This document shows positions 7,726 to 15,396 of a stretch of 64,000 bases of DNA, piece after piece (the first letter of the stretch is position 1; every line of letters starts with the position of its first letter). The notes under the pieces were generated by a model that saw only the letters and a list, made by a program, of their open reading frames with translations, did no database searches and was not told where the DNA came from. The stretch is from Myxococcota bacterium (lineage in GTDB: Bacteria; Myxococcota_A; UBA796; UBA9615; JAKLKC01), in NCBI GenBank assembly GCA_023150875.1, contig JAKLKC010000006.1:62001-126000 (forward strand), in the 5' to 3' direction. A program made the translations under genes and the position numbers.

Positions 7726-8898
7726 CTACAACGACGCCCGCGCCACCAGGATCACCGAGTCGTTGGGGGTCTCGGCGGACGCGGCCAGCTCCACGCGGTG
7801 GACGTAGTCGAGCTGCAGCCCGACGCGGCCCTCCCACAGGAAGACGTTCACCCCGCCCGCGACGTCCAGCCGGTCGCCGGCGTCCTCGATGGCGGTGTTG
7901 TCGTCGTAGCCGTCCACCCGCGCCGCCACCTCCAGGCGCCCGGGCACCAGCATGAACCCGAGCTGTCCATACCAGCCGAAGGACTCCCGCTCCGTGAGCA
8001 GTTCGGGGATCCCCTCGGTGTCGAAGGTGGGCACGGCCCGGGACCAGAAGGCCTCGCCCTGGAGCGAGAAGCGCCAGAAGCGCACGCCCAGGTCCCCCTG
8101 CACCGTGAGGGTGTCGGCTTCCAACTCCCACGCGTGGTTGGCCGCGCCGCCGATGGAGATCGCCGCCTTGGGCAGGGCGAAGTTGGACTCCCGGGCGTCC
8201 CACGGGGCGAGGAGGTCCACGCTGACGCGCCCCGCGACCCGGGGGCCGGGGTCCGCGTCACCGGTCCAGTCCCCGCCCCCGTTGAACACCCCCACGGCGT
8301 AGCGAAGCGCCCCTTCCGGTAGCACGCTCCCCACGGCCTTGCCCACCGCTCCCCCCACCACCAGCCCCGGCTCCCGGGGGGGAGCCATCCGCTCGGACGC
8401 CATGGCCCGCTCCCACAGGGCCAGGGCGAAGGAGGACGCCGTCGCCTGCCGGCCGAAGGGGACCCTCGTGACCCCCGCCTGGACCTGGACCTCCCGGGCC
8501 GGCGCGAACGCGACGTACGCCTCGCTGATCCCGGGGATCTCCGGCCTCGCCTCCAGGGCGTCGTACCGGTCGTCCCAGCCTCCGACGACGCTGACGCCGA
8601 GCAGGCCCTTGTACCAGGCCCGGATCCCGAGCCGCGCCCGGCGCACCGTGACGCCCTCCTTGTGGTCGGGATCGCCCACCACGATGGGATCGTTCCCCTC
8701 GGCGTCGTCCTGGTCGAAGGGAGTGGCCCAGATCTGCGCCTGCACCACGGGCCGCAGGGTGAGTCCCTCGGGCAGCTTCAGCCCGGTCTCGGCGGCGGCG
8801 GGCGTCGTCCCCCCATCCCCCTCCGCGAGGGCCCGGGCCGGGAGGCCGGCCGTCAGCAGGGCCGCGAGCAGGGCGGATCGGGCGGAGCGGCGGGACAT
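7726..8898 (-). CDS. Outer-membrane porin, phosphate-selective porin (OprO/OprP)-like
   Basis: A 390-residue exported protein. The N-terminus is a classical signal peptide ending near PARALA. The remainder is a string of amphipathic beta strands (for example VTVRRARLGIRAWYKG and REVQVQAGVTRVPFG), as in OprO/OprP-type and related diffusion porins. The pattern of a short N-terminal extension and then RRARLG after the first strands is typical of that family. Expected location is the outer membrane. The C-terminal residue is Leu, not the usual aromatic. A -10-like TATCCT lies on this strand at 8923-8928. Substrate selectivity cannot be read from the sequence. Confidence 0.75.
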   Translation of the reverse strand: MSRRSARSALLAALLTAGLPARALAEGDGGTTPAAAETGLKLPEGLTLRPVVQAQIWATPFDQDDAEGNDPIVVGDPDHKEGVTVRRARLGIRAWYKGLLGVSVVGGWDDRYDALEARPEIPGISEAYVAFAPAREVQVQAGVTRVPFGRQATASSFALALWERAMASERMAPPREPGLVVGGAVGKAVGSVLPEGALRYAVGVFNGGGDWTGDADPGPRVAGRVSVDLLAPWDARESNFALPKAAISIGGAANHAWELEADTLTVQGDLGVRFWRFSLQGEAFWSRAVPTFDTEGIPELLTERESFGWYGQLGFMLVPGRLEVAARVDGYDDNTAIEDAGDRLDVAGGVNVFLWEGRVGLQLDYVHRVELAASAETPNDSVILVARASL

Positions 8899-9118
8899 GG
8901 CATGCACCCCCAGGGCCGGGGCAGGATACCGGCGGACCGCCGTGGGCGTCAAACGTCCCTGCGCGCCCGCCGGGCCCGGGCGCCCGCGCGTGCGGTCCCG
9001 GTGGACATCCCGCCCGAGGACCCCTATCCTACCGCTCCCCCAGGGCGCCCGTCGGCGCGGGTGCGCCCCTCCCCTCCCCCCTCCCGTCCCCGAGGGCGCC
9101 GGCCCCGCGGAGGCCGCC

Positions 9119-10030
9119 GTGTTCGATCGCTTCCCCGCCCGCGTCATCACGCGGGCCTCGGACCTGGACTTCCGGCCCGTGGACGCCCCCGCCCGCGAGG
9201 AGCCCCGGCGGGTCTTGATGGCGTCCCCGACGTACTACGACGTCGAGTACGTGATCAACCCCCACATGGAGGGGAACGTCGGGAGGGTCGACCGCCTTCT
9301 GGCCCGCCAGCAGTGGGCCGCCCTGCGCGCCGTGTACGAGGGGCTGGGCTACCCGGTGGAGGTCATCGCCGGCGCCCCGCTCCTCCCGGACATGGTCTTC
9401 ACCGCCAATCAGAGCTTCCCGGCGCGCCTGCCGGACGGGGGGCGGGTGGTGGTGCTTTCCATCATGCGGAGCGCCCGGCGCCAGGCCGAGGTGCCCTGGT
9501 TCGAGGCGTGGTACCGCGGCCAGGGCTTCCAGGTGGCGCGCCTGGACGAGTTCCGGATCTCGGAGTTCGAGGGCGGGGGCGACGCCCTGTGGCATCCGGG
9601 CCGAGGCGTGATCTATGGCGGACACGGTTTCCGCAGCTCCATCGACGCCTATGGCGCCCTCTCGGGGCTCCTGGGAGTCCCGGTGCTGGCGCTGCGGCTG
9701 AACGACCCCCGCTTCTACCACCTGGACACCTGCCTCGCCCCCCTGGACGTCTCCACAGCCCTGTTCGTGGAGGAGGCATTCGACGCCGAGGGCCGCGATC
9801 TGCTCGCCGCGTGCTTCGACCGCCTGATCCCCGTCCCCATCCAGGAGGCGGAGCGGGGCCTGGCGGCCAACGGCCATTGCCCCGACGGCAGGCACTTCGT
9901 GGTCCAGGCGGGCAGCGTCGTCACCCGCGAGCGGGTCCAGAGGGCCGGCTTCGAGGTCCTCGAGGTCGATACGTCGGAGTTCCTCAAGAGCGGCGGGTCG
10001 GTCTACTGTCTCAAGACGATGACGGACTGA
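9119..10030 (+). CDS. Guanidino-group-modifying hydrolase, DDAH/arginine-dihydrolase-like
   Basis: A 303-residue protein of the amidinotransferase/arginine deiminase fold. Visible features are the entry strand YYDVEYVINPHMEGN, the substrate site PDMVFTANQSF, GGGDALW, catalytic His201 in FYHLDTCLAPLD, and the nucleophile Cys297 in SVYCLKT close to the end. The YDVEYVINPHMEGN and FTAN pattern resembles the arginine dihydrolase module of ArgZ/AgrE more than classical dimethylargininase, as I remember those families. A GTG at 9119 is chosen: GGAGG lies 5 nt upstream, and the later ATG at 9218 would cut the first beta strand. Arginine decarboxylase follows after 45 bp, so arginine or a derivative is the likely substrate. 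Confidence 0.78.
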   Translation: MFDRFPARVITRASDLDFRPVDAPAREEPRRVLMASPTYYDVEYVINPHMEGNVGRVDRLLARQQWAALRAVYEGLGYPVEVIAGAPLLPDMVFTANQSFPARLPDGGRVVVLSIMRSARRQAEVPWFEAWYRGQGFQVARLDEFRISEFEGGGDALWHPGRGVIYGGHGFRSSIDAYGALSGLLGVPVLALRLNDPRFYHLDTCLAPLDVSTALFVEEAFDAEGRDLLAACFDRLIPVPIQEAERGLAANGHCPDGRHFVVQAGSVVTRERVQRAGFEVLEVDTSEFLKSGGSVYCLKTMTD

Positions 10031-10075: not shown

Positions 10076-11998
10076 ATGAGCCAGGCACGCAAGGAGGCGC
10101 GGTCTCCGACCGCCCGGGTGGACGAGGCCGCCGCCTACTACGAGATCGACAACTGGGGCGCCGGCTACTTCCGGGTCAGCGCCAAGGGCGAGATGTGCGC
10201 CCACCCCGACCAGAACGGCAGCGGCGTGTCGCTCCTGGACGTGGTGGGCCTCGCCCGGGACTCGGGCCTCCGGCCGCCGCTGCTGGTGCGCTTCCCCCAG
10301 ATCCTGCACCAGCAGGTGCGGCGGCTGAACCACGCCTTCGGCCGGGCCATCGACGAGTACGGCTACACGGGGCGATACCACGGGGTCTACCCCATCAAGG
10401 TGAACCAGGACGCCTACGTGGTCCAGGCCATCGTCGAGGAGGGGCGCAGGCACGGCTACGGGATCGAGGCGGGCTCCAAGCCCGAGCTGGTGGTCGCCCT
10501 GGCCCAGGACCTCCCCCCCGAGGCCCTGATCATCTGCAACGGGTACAAGGACCTCGACTACATCCGCCTGGCCCTCGCCGCCCGGGGCATGGGGCGCCAG
10601 GTCTTCCTCATCGTCGAGAAGCCGTCGGAGGTCACCCGGATCGCCGAGGCCGCCCGGGCGATGGACGTGCGCCCCCTCATCGGGATCCGCCTGAAGCTCC
10701 AGAGCCGGGGCTCCGGCAAGTGGGAGAAGTCCGGCGGGGCCGCGGCGAAGTTCGGCCTCACCGTGACCGAGCTGCTGGGGGCCATCGAACAGCTCCGGGG
10801 GGAGGGCATGCTGGACTGCCTCCAGCTCCTCCACTTCCACATCGGCAGCCAGATCACACAGATCCGCCGGATCCGCGACGGCGTGCGGGAGGCCGCCCGC
10901 GCCTACGCCAAGCTTCAGCGGATGGGGTGCGGCGTGCGCTTCCTGGACGTGGGCGGCGGCCTGGGCGTCGACTACGACGGATCCCGCACCAGCTTCGAGT
11001 CCTCGATCAACTACTCGCTGGAGGAGTACGCCAACACCGTGGTCTGGGCGGTGAAGGAGGTGTGCGAGAGCGAGGAGGTCCAGGTCCCCCACCTGGTCAG
11101 CGAGAGCGGGCGGGCGGTGGCCGCCTACCACTCCCTGGTGGTGCTGGAGGTCAGTCCCGAGGTCGCTCCCCCCCGGCCCCAGATCCCCGAGGTCCCCGAG
11201 GAGGACCACTCTCTTGTGCACCAGCTCCACGACCTGGCCAAGGAGATCACCCGCAAGAACTACCGCGAGTTCTACCACGACGCCACCGACCTCTCCACCG
11301 AGCTCGATTCCCTGTTCAAGCTCGGGTACATCAGCCTGGAGGAGCGCTCCCGCGCCGAGCGACTCACCAGCTTCCTGCATCAGCGGATCATCCACCACGC
11401 GCGGGAGGAGTCCCCCTTCCCCGAGGAGTTCGAGGCCCTCGAGGAGCAGCTCTCGGTGAAGTACGTGTGCAACTTCTCGGTGTTCCAGTCGGTGCCGGAC
11501 TACTGGGCGGTGGGGCAGCTCTTCCCGGTGGTGCCCCTGCACCGGCTGAAGGAGCCGCCCACGGTCAACGCCCAGCTCACCGACATCACCTGCGACAGCG
11601 ACGGGTGTATCAGCAAGTTCCCGGACGTGCGGGACGTGAAGGACTTCCTGAAGCTCCACCCGCTCCGGCCCGGCGAGCCCTACTACCTGGGGGTCTTCCT
11701 GACCGGCGCCTACCAGGACGTCCTGGGCGACTTCCACAACATGTTCGGCACCGTCGACGAGGTCATCGTGCGGGTCGACGAGGAGGGGGCCCCCCAGATC
11801 GACGCCTACATCAAAGGCCAGACCGCCCGGGACGTGCTGTCGCTGTTCGGCTTCGATGTCGCCGAGATGGTGGACGACTACCGCACCCGCATGAGGGATC
11901 AGGCCCGCCGGGGGGAGATCGACGAGTTCGCCGCCGAGGTGGCCATCGCCCAGTTCAGCTCCACCCTGGATTCCTACACGTACCTGCGGGGGGAGTGA
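10076..11998 (+). CDS. speA: Biosynthetic arginine decarboxylase
   Basis: A 640-residue PLP enzyme that converts arginine to agmatine, the first step of agmatine-route polyamine synthesis in the cytoplasm. The length and motifs fit SpeA: N-terminal YEIDNWGAGYF, the PLP lysine K108 in GVYPIKVNQ, HFHIGSQ, the glycine-rich LDVGGGLGVDYDG, and the C-terminal Cys motif ITCDSDGC. It starts at ATG 10076. It lies between the arginine-hydrolase-like gene (45 bp) and the DAHP-synthase-like gene (6 bp), so these are probably one transcript. No agmatinase or agmatine deiminase gene is visible in the window. Confidence 0.95.
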   Translation: MSQARKEARSPTARVDEAAAYYEIDNWGAGYFRVSAKGEMCAHPDQNGSGVSLLDVVGLARDSGLRPPLLVRFPQILHQQVRRLNHAFGRAIDEYGYTGRYHGVYPIKVNQDAYVVQAIVEEGRRHGYGIEAGSKPELVVALAQDLPPEALIICNGYKDLDYIRLALAARGMGRQVFLIVEKPSEVTRIAEAARAMDVRPLIGIRLKLQSRGSGKWEKSGGAAAKFGLTVTELLGAIEQLRGEGMLDCLQLLHFHIGSQITQIRRIRDGVREAARAYAKLQRMGCGVRFLDVGGGLGVDYDGSRTSFESSINYSLEEYANTVVWAVKEVCESEEVQVPHLVSESGRAVAAYHSLVVLEVSPEVAPPRPQIPEVPEEDHSLVHQLHDLAKEITRKNYREFYHDATDLSTELDSLFKLGYISLEERSRAERLTSFLHQRIIHHAREESPFPEEFEALEEQLSVKYVCNFSVFQSVPDYWAVGQLFPVVPLHRLKEPPTVNAQLTDITCDSDGCISKFPDVRDVKDFLKLHPLRPGEPYYLGVFLTGAYQDVLGDFHNMFGTVDEVIVRVDEEGAPQIDAYIKGQTARDVLSLFGFDVAEMVDDYRTRMRDQARRGEIDEFAAEVAIAQFSSTLDSYTYLRGE

Positions 11999-12004
11999 GA
12001 CGCG

Positions 12005-13027
12005 ATGCTCATCGTGCTGCGCCCCGACGCCACCCCCGAGCAGCAGCTCGAGGTGGAGTGGTACATCGGCAGCCTGGGCCTCACCGCGCACCCCATCCCC
12101 GGCACGGCGCGGACCGCCATCGGGATCACCGGCAACCAGGGCCCCCTGGACCCCGAGGCGTTCCGGCGCATGCCGGGGGTCGCGGAGGCCATCGCCGTGT
12201 CCCAGCCCTACCGGCTGGTCTCCCGGGAGGTGCGGCCCGACGACACCGTGGTCGACGTCGGCGGAGTGGCGGTGGGCGGCGTCGAGGTCGTGGTCTTCGC
12301 CGGCTCCGGGACCGTGGAGGACCGGGCCCAGACCCTGGAGACGGCCCGGGCGGTGCGGGACGCGGGGGGAGCGGCTTACCGTTCCAACGCCTACGTGTCC
12401 CCGGACCGCCCCTACGCCGGGGCGGGTCTCGGGGAGGCGGGCCTGGAGCTGCTGGCCGAGGCCAGGGCCGCGACGGGGCTTCCCCTGGTCACCGAGGTCT
12501 CAGAGGCCGCCGCCCTGGCCCGGATCGCCGAGGTCGCCGACGCCATCGAGATCGGCGCCCGCAACATGCTGAACGTCCACCTGCTCCACGCGGTGGCGGA
12601 GGTCCGCAAGCCCGTCATCATCCGGCGCGCCGTCGGCGTCACCCTGCGGGAGCTCCTCCTGGCCGCGGAACACGTCGTCTCCCGGGGGAACCCCCACGTG
12701 CTCCTGTGCGAGCGGGGGATCCGGACCTTCGAGACCGTCGTCGACTCCTTCGACATCAACGCCATCCCCACCCTCAAGCGCCTCTCCCACCTGCCGGTCC
12801 TGGCGGACCCATCCCGGGGGATCGGCGTCCACCACGGGGTCGCCGCCCTGGCCCGGGCGGCGGTGGCGGCGGGGGCCGACGGCCTCCTGGTCCACGTCCA
12901 TCCCCGGCCCCTGCACGCCCACGCCGACGCCGCCCCCTCCTTGGACCCCGCCCAGTTCGCCGAGCTGATGCGGGGAGCCGGCGCCGTCGCACGGGCGGTG
13001 GGGCGCGAGCTCGCGGGACCCGCCTGA
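12005..13027 (+). CDS. DAHP-synthase (type I beta)-like protein lacking metal ligands
   Basis: A 340-residue homologue of AroF/AroG-type 3-deoxy-7-phosphoheptulonate synthase with its N-terminal ferredoxin-like domain (MLIVLRPDATPEQ to PYRLVSRE) and a TIM barrel (EIGARNMLN, LLCERGIRTFE). It aligns almost without gaps to the Thermotoga enzyme, but key positions differ. The metal ligand Cys102 is Gly102 (FAGSGTVE), His272 is Arg271 (DPSRG), Glu298 is His297 (VHVHP), and only the last Asp (D308) remains. The phosphoenolpyruvate-binding Lys131 is Val and Arg133 is Pro (RSNAYVSPDRPY). Ordinary DAHP synthase activity is therefore doubtful. It begins 6 bp after speA and precedes aroA by 81 bp. It may be a regulatory, scaffold or new-function paralogue. 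Confidence 0.85.
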   Translation: MLIVLRPDATPEQQLEVEWYIGSLGLTAHPIPGTARTAIGITGNQGPLDPEAFRRMPGVAEAIAVSQPYRLVSREVRPDDTVVDVGGVAVGGVEVVVFAGSGTVEDRAQTLETARAVRDAGGAAYRSNAYVSPDRPYAGAGLGEAGLELLAEARAATGLPLVTEVSEAAALARIAEVADAIEIGARNMLNVHLLHAVAEVRKPVIIRRAVGVTLRELLLAAEHVVSRGNPHVLLCERGIRTFETVVDSFDINAIPTLKRLSHLPVLADPSRGIGVHHGVAALARAAVAAGADGLLVHVHPRPLHAHADAAPSLDPAQFAELMRGAGAVARAVGRELAGPA

Positions 13028-13108: not shown

Positions 13109-14437
13109 GTGCGGGTGGAGGTGAACCGCGCCTCGGGCTTCCGGGGCACGTTCGCCGCCCCCGGCGACAAGTCCGTGAGTCACCGGGCCATGATCCTGGC
13201 CGCGATCTCCCGGGGGGAGTGCCGGATCTCCTCCCTCGCCCCCGGGGCCGACGTGCGCTCCACCGCCGCCTGCCTCGCCGCGTTGGGTGTGGAGGTCCGG
13301 ATCGACCGGGGGGAGGCGGTGGTGCGGGGGACCGGACCGGGCGGTCTTCGTGCCCCCGCGGGCCCCCTGGACTGCGGCAACAGCGGGACCACGATGCGCC
13401 TCCTCTCGGGGATCGTCGCCGGCGCCGGCCTCCCGGCGGTGCTGGACGGCGACCCCAGCCTCCGCCGCCGCCCCATGCGCCGGCTGCTGGACCCCCTGCG
13501 GGCCATGGGCGCACGGGCCCGGGGCCAGGGCGCCGAGGTCGAGGCCGACGAGCGCGCTCCCCTCGTCTTCGAGGCCGGGGCGCGCCTGGTCGGACGACGT
13601 CACGCACTCCCCGTCGCCAGCGCCCAGGTGAAGTCCGCCCTCCTCCTCGCCGGGCTGTGGGCGGTGGGAGAGACCGTGGTCCGCGAGCCCGGCCGCTCCC
13701 GGGACCACACCGAGCGCATGCTGGAGGCCTTCGGCGTGCCGGTGTCCCGCGGTGAGGACGGCGCGGTGGGCGTGCTCGGCCCCGCGCCGCCCCTCGGGGT
13801 GCCCGAGGCGTTCCCGGTGCCCGGCGATCCCTCCTCGGCGGCGTTCCTGGTGGGCGCCGCCCTCTTGGTGGAGGGGGGCGAGGCGACCGTCACCGGGGTG
13901 TGCGCCAACGACACGCGGACGGGCTTCCTCCGCGTCCTCGCGCGGATGGGCGCGGACGTGCGACAGGTGGACCGTGGCTCGCGGGGGGGAGAGCCGGTGG
14001 CCGACCTCGTCGTCCGGGGCTCCCCCGGGTCCTTGCGGGGGACGCGGATCGAGCCCGACGAGGTCCCCTCCCTGGTGGACGAGGTGCCCCTGCTGGCGAT
14101 GGTGGCGGCGGTCGCCCGGGGTACCACGACGATCCGGGGCGCGGCGGAGCTGCGGGTCAAGGAGTCCGATCGGCTGTCCCAGGTCGCCCGGGGGCTGGCC
14201 GCCATGGGCGCCAGGGTGCGGGAGCTCCCCGACGGCCTGGAGATCCAGGGGGGTGCCCCCCTCCGGGGCGCGGACGTGGACGCCGCCTCCGACCACCGGA
14301 TCGCCATGAGCTTCGCGGTCGCCGGCCTCGCGGCCCACGGGGCGACCCGGATCCGGGGCGCCGAGTGGGCCGACGTCTCGTTCCCGGGCTTCTTCTCCCT
14401 GCTCGCCGCGGCGAGCGGCGGCGCGGTGCGGCCCTGA
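13109..14437 (+). CDS. aroA: 3-phosphoshikimate 1-carboxyvinyltransferase (EPSP synthase)
   Basis: A 442-residue enzyme that joins shikimate 3-phosphate and phosphoenolpyruvate in chorismate synthesis. Hallmarks are GDKSVSHRAMI near the N-terminus, CGNSGTTMRL, ASAQVKSALLLAGL, the RVKESDRL motif and DHRIAMSFAVAGL. The GTG start at 13109 follows GGAGGGGGA with good spacing. The stop overlaps the likely start of aroE. The upstream neighbour is the divergent DAHP-synthase-like gene. Confidence 0.95.
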   Translation: MRVEVNRASGFRGTFAAPGDKSVSHRAMILAAISRGECRISSLAPGADVRSTAACLAALGVEVRIDRGEAVVRGTGPGGLRAPAGPLDCGNSGTTMRLLSGIVAGAGLPAVLDGDPSLRRRPMRRLLDPLRAMGARARGQGAEVEADERAPLVFEAGARLVGRRHALPVASAQVKSALLLAGLWAVGETVVREPGRSRDHTERMLEAFGVPVSRGEDGAVGVLGPAPPLGVPEAFPVPGDPSSAAFLVGAALLVEGGEATVTGVCANDTRTGFLRVLARMGADVRQVDRGSRGGEPVADLVVRGSPGSLRGTRIEPDEVPSLVDEVPLLAMVAAVARGTTTIRGAAELRVKESDRLSQVARGLAAMGARVRELPDGLEIQGGAPLRGADVDAASDHRIAMSFAVAGLAAHGATRIRGAEWADVSFPGFFSLLAAASGGAVRP

Positions 14438-15396
14438 GCGTTCCCCTCGCCACCCCTCCCCGCGCCACCTACGCGGTGATCGGGGATCCCGTGGGCCACA
14501 CGCTTTCCCCGCGGATCTTCGCCTGGCTCTTCGCCCACCTGGCGCTGGACCGGCACCACTACACCGCCTTCCGGGTCCCCCCTCCGGAGCTGCCCGCCGC
14601 CCTGGCCCGGGTCCGCCGGGGCCTCCTCTCGGGACTGTCGGTGACCCTGCCCTTCAAGGAGGCGGTGATCCCCCTCCTGGACTCCGTCGACGCCCCCGCC
14701 CGGCGTTTCGGCGCGGTGAACTGCGTCGTGCGGGGGGACGACGGCCTCCTCACGGGGTACAACACCGACGCCCAGGGCTTCCGCCGAGCGGTGGAGCTGG
14801 GGGGGGGCCAGCTCGGTGGCGCCCGGATCGTGCTGCTGGGCGCCGGTGGAGCGGGGAGGGCCGCCGCCTTCGCGGCCGTGGCCCAGGGGGCGAGCCGGCT
14901 GGTGATCGCCAACCGCACGCGGGAGAGGGCGGTGCGCCTGGGCCTGGACCTGGTGGATGAAGGGATCGCCGTGCCCGACGGCCCCCTCCGGACGGCGTGG
15001 ACCGAGTCGGGGCGTCCTCCCTTGCCTCCGGGGGGGCCCATCCCCGCCCTGTGTCGGGTGAGCGTCGCCCCCCTCCACGCCAAGGCCCTCGCCCCCGCCC
15101 TGGCGGGCGCGGACCTGCTGGTGAACGCCACCAGCGTCGGGCTGTCGGATCCCACGTCGGATCCCCTGCCCCCGGGCTGCCGGCCGGAGCCCGGCGCCCT
15201 CGTGCTGGACATGGTGTATCGTCCCCTCCGCACGGCGCTGCTCCGCCGGGCCGAGGCGGAGGGCGCCATCGCCGTGGACGGCCAGTGGATGCTGGTGTAT
15301 CAGGCCCTGGAGCAGCTCCGCCTCTGGACGGGCCGCGCGGTGGACGACGGCGCGGCGGCGGCCCTGCACGCACACCTCGGGGGCAGCGGCCCGTGA
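14434..15396 (+). CDS. aroE: Shikimate dehydrogenase
   Basis: About 320 residues; NADPH-dependent reduction of 3-dehydroshikimate. Visible motifs: VIGDPVGHTLSP (shikimate binding), LSVTLPFKEAV with the catalytic Lys, GYNTDAQGF with the catalytic Asp, the cofactor loop GAGGAGRAAAFAA, and the late NATSVGL. The segment between the cofactor loop and NATSVGL is longer than usual. No ATG or GTG lies at the expected position. The best start is CTG 14434, which overlaps the aroA stop in a CTGA arrangement; a GTG at 14476 would remove the first strand. Translational coupling to aroA is likely. Confidence 0.9.
   Translation: MSVPLATPPRATYAVIGDPVGHTLSPRIFAWLFAHLALDRHHYTAFRVPPPELPAALARVRRGLLSGLSVTLPFKEAVIPLLDSVDAPARRFGAVNCVVRGDDGLLTGYNTDAQGFRRAVELGGGQLGGARIVLLGAGGAGRAAAFAAVAQGASRLVIANRTRERAVRLGLDLVDEGIAVPDGPLRTAWTESGRPPLPPGGPIPALCRVSVAPLHAKALAPALAGADLLVNATSVGLSDPTSDPLPPGCRPEPGALVLDMVYRPLRTALLRRAEAEGAIAVDGQWMLVYQALEQLRLWTGRAVDDGAAAALHAHLGGSGP

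Follow-up and report, generated by a model that had tools for sequence, protein, structure and literature searches.

The gene P0001, which lies next to aroA in the window (the whole stretch of 64,000 nucleotides from a Myxococcota bacterium analysed here), encodes a homologue of the type I-beta DAHP synthases that has lost catalytic residues while its fold, as predicted, is kept; this is the combination that defines a pseudoenzyme. The explanation that we favour, tentatively and at close to an even chance, is that an ancestral aroA-linked enzyme has turned into a non-catalytic regulatory or scaffold pseudoenzyme. The shikimate pathway is entered through DAHP synthase, whose allosteric control by bolt-on domains is a textbook example. 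An inactive copy that is nonetheless maintained would show control moving from the enzyme into a separate pseudoenzyme.

The open reading frame of P0001 is complete (340 codons, from ATG to TGA). Its product has a ferredoxin-like regulatory domain (FXD or FL; PF18152) followed by a DAHP_synth_1 TIM barrel (PF00793, 153 bits), which is the architecture of the FL subtype. A near-gapless alignment with the type I beta enzymes had been claimed from the sequence alone, and the Thermotoga maritima DAHP synthase (PDB entry 1rzm) indeed aligns with P0001 from end to end with an E value of 6.6e-72 and one single-residue gap. The AF2 model of P0001 is confident (pLDDT 94.2, pTM 0.88), and the comparison with the T. 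maritima enzyme that had been proposed as a check gives a match at an E value of 2e-40, so that the predicted fold is that of the Thermotoga protein. The barrel of the model has an r.m.s.d. of 0.9–1.8 Å to the type I-beta barrels of PDB entries 1vs1, 3pg8 and 1zco. The scores against the curated NCBIfam models fall below their cut-offs, at 251.1 versus 267.75 for TIGR01361 and, marginally, at 334.6 versus 335 for NF006421. P0001 is an annotation trap, as its overall similarity would get it named a DAHP synthase. Identity as a KDO8P synthase was considered and rejected (TIGR01362 scores 83 versus 314, and the motif of the FKASFDKANR region is absent); PDB entry 2nxg, which we take to be an engineered KDO8P synthase intermediate, is among the structure matches of the model.

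Residue roles in the active site were taken from the equivalent metal, PEP and E4P residues of DAHP synthases listed in PMC6362186, according to which every reported DAHP synthase is a metalloenzyme. Three of the four metal ligands are lost in P0001 and the Asp alone remains. Alignment to 1rzm bears out the residues that the sequence-only reading had placed opposite Thermotoga Cys102, His272, Glu298 and Asp309, namely Gly102, Arg271, His297 and Asp308, and likewise its replacement of Lys131 by Val and of Arg133 by Pro. Thr134 is also replaced, by Asp, and the KPRT motif, which binds PEP and E4P, reads VSPD. The same reading had an RRG strand turned into RRA; RRA is what P0001 has, but the canonical strand is K207-R208-G209 and not R-R-G, so that the changes are Lys207 to Arg and Gly209 to Ala. 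The PEP site is otherwise recognizable: Arg126, Arg186 and Arg237 are retained and the change at Lys207 is conservative. Glu164, Ala185 and Arg208 are also retained.

Table 1. Features of the P0001 locus and the related DAHP synthase-family genes discussed in the text; coordinates without a prefix are those of the window.
Feature	Location	Strand	Evidence or remark
speA, arginine decarboxylase	10076..11998	+	Ends 6 bases upstream of the P0001 ATG
P0001, type I-beta DAHP synthase homologue, predicted non-catalytic, 340 aa	12005..13027	+	ORF, domains, alignment, model
Ferredoxin-like regulatory (FXD/FL) domain of P0001, residues ~1–68	12005..12208	+	PF18152, 53.9 bits versus cut-off 27
Metal ligand Cys102, now Gly102	12308..12310	+	Alignment
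KPRTS substrate loop, now V131-S132-P133-D134-R135	12395..12409	+	Alignment
K207-R208-G209 strand, now R-R-A	12623..12631	+	Alignment
Metal ligand His272, now Arg271	12815..12817	+	Alignment
Metal ligand Glu298, now His297, within the His-rich stretch HVHPRPLHAHAD (297–308)	12893..12895	+	Alignment
Fourth metal ligand, kept: Asp308 (Thermotoga Asp309)	12926..12928	+	Alignment
aroA, EPSP synthase	13109..14437	+	PF00275, 348 bits; starts 81 bases downstream of P0001
aroE, shikimate dehydrogenase	14437..15396	+	Start codon uncertain, abuts/overlaps aroA stop
P0003, CM-type DAHP synthase	G000:C130, L155:9813-10856	+	All catalytic DAHP synthase residues present
P0002, CM-type paralogue with dead barrel	G000:C105, L156:9000-10097	-	Residue comparison
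P0004, FL + dead DAHP synthase barrel + prephenate dehydratase + ACT, 620 aa	G204:C233, L234:5307-7166	+	

To place these losses among the relatives, a pattern-based scan of genome_contigs was made with one genome per species. Among the 80 FL-type relatives that it returned from 84,980 species, the losses of P0001 occur in none, and the nearest departure is in Aquitalea. The Aquitalea FL-type enzymes (L087, L088, L089, L091 and L093) have Ala for the Cys and Asp for the Glu and keep the His, the Asp and the KPRT loop; their metal use is possibly altered. The class and a 379-genome sample of the phylum were also searched and gave relatives up to 52% identical. The phylum matches came from 170 genomes, and of these our reading covered the top 30 FL-type loci, the CM-type loci and 40 lower-ranked ones. 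The FL-type relatives read, about 110 in number, are canonical with one exception, a module in the genome G204. A close relative of P0001 was found neither in the species scan nor in the class or phylum sample, and P0001 is present in one genome only. Homologues sharing Gly102, Arg271 and His297, for which a search had been advised, turned up in part: among those read none has the whole set, but Gly102 alone recurs in the G204 module. A search of the open PMC subset for inactive DAHP synthase paralogues gave nothing relevant.

The extent of the change was quantified in an alignment (A1) of 52 rows, P0001 and 51 canonical relatives, which has 72 near-invariant columns. P0001 has lost 21 of these, compared with a mean of 2.6 and a maximum of 7 for the canonical relatives. 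Thirteen of the 21 lost columns lie within one residue of the ligand residues, versus 11 of the 51 that are kept (Fisher p = 0.0014), and at a distance from the ligands 40 of the 48 near-invariant columns are kept. Chance is excluded as the source of the losses by the column counts together with the clustering at the ligand residues. In the tree P0001 groups with the canonical FL-type enzymes of its phylum (support 99/87, and 95/82 in a second tree), and its terminal branch is long (1.1–1.3 versus a median near 0.4).

P0001 sits in what looks like an ancestral aroA-linked slot. The gene order is speA, P0001, aroA, aroE, and the tight spacing with speA and aroA that had been noted from the sequence holds (Table 1). 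Canonical FL-type DAHP synthase genes lie within a few kilobases of aroA in many phyla, so the link between P0001 and aroA looks ancestral; in G016, a genome of the same class, such a gene directly adjoins aroA. A speA gene near a DAHP synthase gene was seen in no other fetched locus. Upstream of speA, the 3′ part of an open reading frame at 8339–10030 on the forward strand resembles, by eye, an N,N-dimethylarginine dimethylaminohydrolase/amidinotransferase, and the run would thus join arginine/agmatine and shikimate genes.

The genome of the window (G000) carries four PF00793 genes, which are P0001 and one each on contigs C130, C66 and C105. The gene on C130, P0003, is of the CM type and is the sole canonical DAHP synthase of the genome. 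The sequence-only reading had asked whether a normal DAHP synthase lies elsewhere and had named its absence as the finding that would speak against lost function; since the genome carries P0003, this objection falls away. With its key residues gone and P0003 present, the loss of DAHP synthesis by P0001 is well supported. The CM domain of P0003 is degenerate, with the equivalents of K39 and R51 lost (the roles of these residues are described in PMC5526877). The gene on C105, P0002, has lost 30 of 109 near-invariant columns; its barrel lacks the equivalents of the Cys, the His, Lys131, Arg186, Lys207 and Arg237, and in its CM domain one catalytic Arg, R29, is replaced by Phe. The P0002 gene is intact and its model is fair (pLDDT 86). 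The gene on C66 is presumably kdsA and adjoins a kdsB-like gene, both being named by reading the sequence. Neither a type II DAHP synthase nor an AroH chorismate mutase was found in this genome, and the only CM_2 domains found in it are those of P0002 and P0003.

P0001 would have become redundant once P0003 sufficed, and could be a remnant that is drifting within an expressed operon, so far without a frameshift or a stop; we consider this unlikely, though by no means negligible. The second PF00793 gene without an active site, P0002, and the long terminal branch are in keeping with a remnant, and an open frame means little at such a GC content. The sequence-only reading had argued that the gene is intact and so is not decaying. 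The frame is indeed intact, but the argument is weaker than stated, because in this GC-rich DNA the antisense strand at P0001 is also open, with frames of 252 and 612 codons. Better evidence against decay comes from the GC3 of P0001, which at 0.96 equals that of speA and aroA, and from the conserved regulatory domain. Drift was tested with P0001's own clade as the baseline, comparing variable-column identity with that between canonical subgroups. The FL domain has an identity to the clade of 0.498, with 0.475 expected (ratio 1.05), and the barrel has 0.414, with 0.513 expected (ratio 0.81). The test of drift, at the rate that the lost conserved columns imply, gives p = 0.0056 overall, p = 0.004 in the FL domain and p = 0.096 in the barrel; the FL domain thus cannot be explained by drift at that rate, whereas for the barrel alone drift is not rejected. 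With an FL identity as in true enzymes and a reduced barrel identity, the regulatory domain looks fully constrained and the barrel looks changed, chiefly at the active site. The full conservation of the FL domain, the near-invariant columns kept away from the ligands and the confident fold all speak against a remnant, whereas the lowered identity in the variable columns of the barrel fits one and counts against a regulatory role as well.

P0001 could alternatively catalyse a new reaction or act on a new substrate, perhaps another phosphorylated compound; this we find doubtful, and regard as a minority view. Such a substrate is possible because the pocket is strongly basic (Arg126, Arg186, Arg207, Arg208, Arg237 and Arg271) and the His-rich stretch could hold a metal. 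This stretch contains His297, His299, His304 and His306 besides Asp308, and His297, His306 and Asp308 would form a putative rebuilt metal site. Two of these histidines, His297 and His306, are new; at position 306 most of the 51 relatives have Leu, Trp, Arg or Lys. The substitutions at 131–135, 271 and 297 are not conservative but radical, in a pocket that keeps three PEP-site arginines and Glu164 and has Arg for Lys207. Set against this, the new residues are common to no relative found; moreover, His299 is invariant and His304 is common in ordinary enzymes, so that the cluster may be partly accidental. It is very improbable that P0001 remains a DAHP synthase, or a related PEP aldolase, with a metal-independent or rearranged site of the kind possible in KDO8P synthases. 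In favour of this are the retained Asp308 and PEP arginines, the existence of metal-free KDO8P synthases with Asn in place of the Cys and the related changes of the Aquitalea enzymes at the Cys and the Glu. But in P0001 His272, Glu298, Lys131, Arg133 and Thr134 are gone as well, Lys131, Arg133 and His272 are invariant in 51 of the 51 relatives in A1, and a canonical enzyme is encoded elsewhere in the genome.

The exceptional module in G204, a genome from another family of the same phylum, bears on the pseudoenzyme reading. Its protein, P0004, resembles P0001 in being an FL-type module without the metal ligands and in having the identical change of Cys102 to Gly. It has lost 22 of the 72 near-invariant columns, and 15 of these losses are common to P0001 (6.4 expected, p = 4e-6). 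It differs in its fusion to prephenate dehydratase (PDT) and ACT domains, in the loss of all four metal ligands (the residues are Gly, Leu, Gln and Gly) and in its overall sequence, which is 39% identical. Lys207 is also missing from P0004, as are other residues of the PEP site that are retained or conservatively changed in P0001, so a common function of the two proteins need not be assumed. P0004 is the sole PF00793 gene of its genome, which has a type II DAHP synthase. The closest canonical relative of P0004 is without the PDT fusion, and no FL–DAHP synthase–PDT fusion was found in the other genomes of its class. P0001 and the G204 module could have arisen independently or from a shared dead ancestor, and the data accommodate either (AU p = 0.28).

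For a pseudoenzyme we infer the following history. P0001 would descend from its lineage's aroA-linked FL-type (type I-beta) DAHP synthase and would no longer make DAHP, catalysis having probably been taken over by P0003. It would have retained the fold, the amino-acid-sensing FL domain and the greater part of the PEP-phosphate pocket. An aromatic amino acid would bind to the FL domain, PEP or another phosphorylated ligand might bind in the basic pocket of the barrel, and the partner would be an enzyme of the aromatic pathway, either P0003 or one encoded by a neighbouring gene, such as AroA. What P0001 has kept, its FL sensor and PEP-site arginines, and the covalent link to PDT in G204 suggest a regulatory or scaffold role, which the conserved FL domain and the fusion, as indirect support, make plausible. 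The regulatory domain of P0003 is degraded, and this may leave room for control in trans. Mixed tetramers with P0001 are uncertain, because the active DAHP synthase is of the CM type and not of the FL type. The parsimonious reading is that an FL-type enzyme can lose catalysis yet stay if the flux passes through another DAHP synthase. It is possible, if somewhat unlikely, that the phylum has on more than one occasion made redundant FL-type DAHP synthases into non-catalytic sensors of aromatic amino acids for other pathway enzymes, acting in trans in G000, where P0001 neighbours aroA, and in cis in G204, through the PDT fusion. If so, two dead paralogues, P0001 and P0002, would control the single CM-type DAHP synthase of G000.

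Compared with known systems, P0001 is like the FL-type enzyme of T. maritima, TM0343 (PDB entries 1rzm, 1vr6 and 3pg9), in its domain order, length, predicted fold, FL domain and several PEP-site arginines, and canonical relatives of the TM0343 type are often linked to aroA, as P0001 is. Unlike TM0343, it is without the metal ligands Cys, His and Glu and without the KPRT loop. P0003 has the barrel family in common with P0001, but has every catalytic residue of a DAHP synthase and an N-terminal domain of a degenerate chorismate-mutase type rather than an FL domain. P0002 is like P0001 in that catalytic residues are lost from an intact gene; it differs in its CM-type N-terminal domain, in the positions lost, which are partly others, and in lacking PEP-site arginines that P0001 keeps. 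Dead paralogues that control catalytic kin or a partner are found in plants, as with PDX1.2 (PMC6829848) and TSB-like (PMC12727527). These belong to families unrelated to P0001, and regulation was shown for them by experiment; by analogy, P0001 may likewise be a dead paralogue that persists because it controls a catalytic relative or partner.
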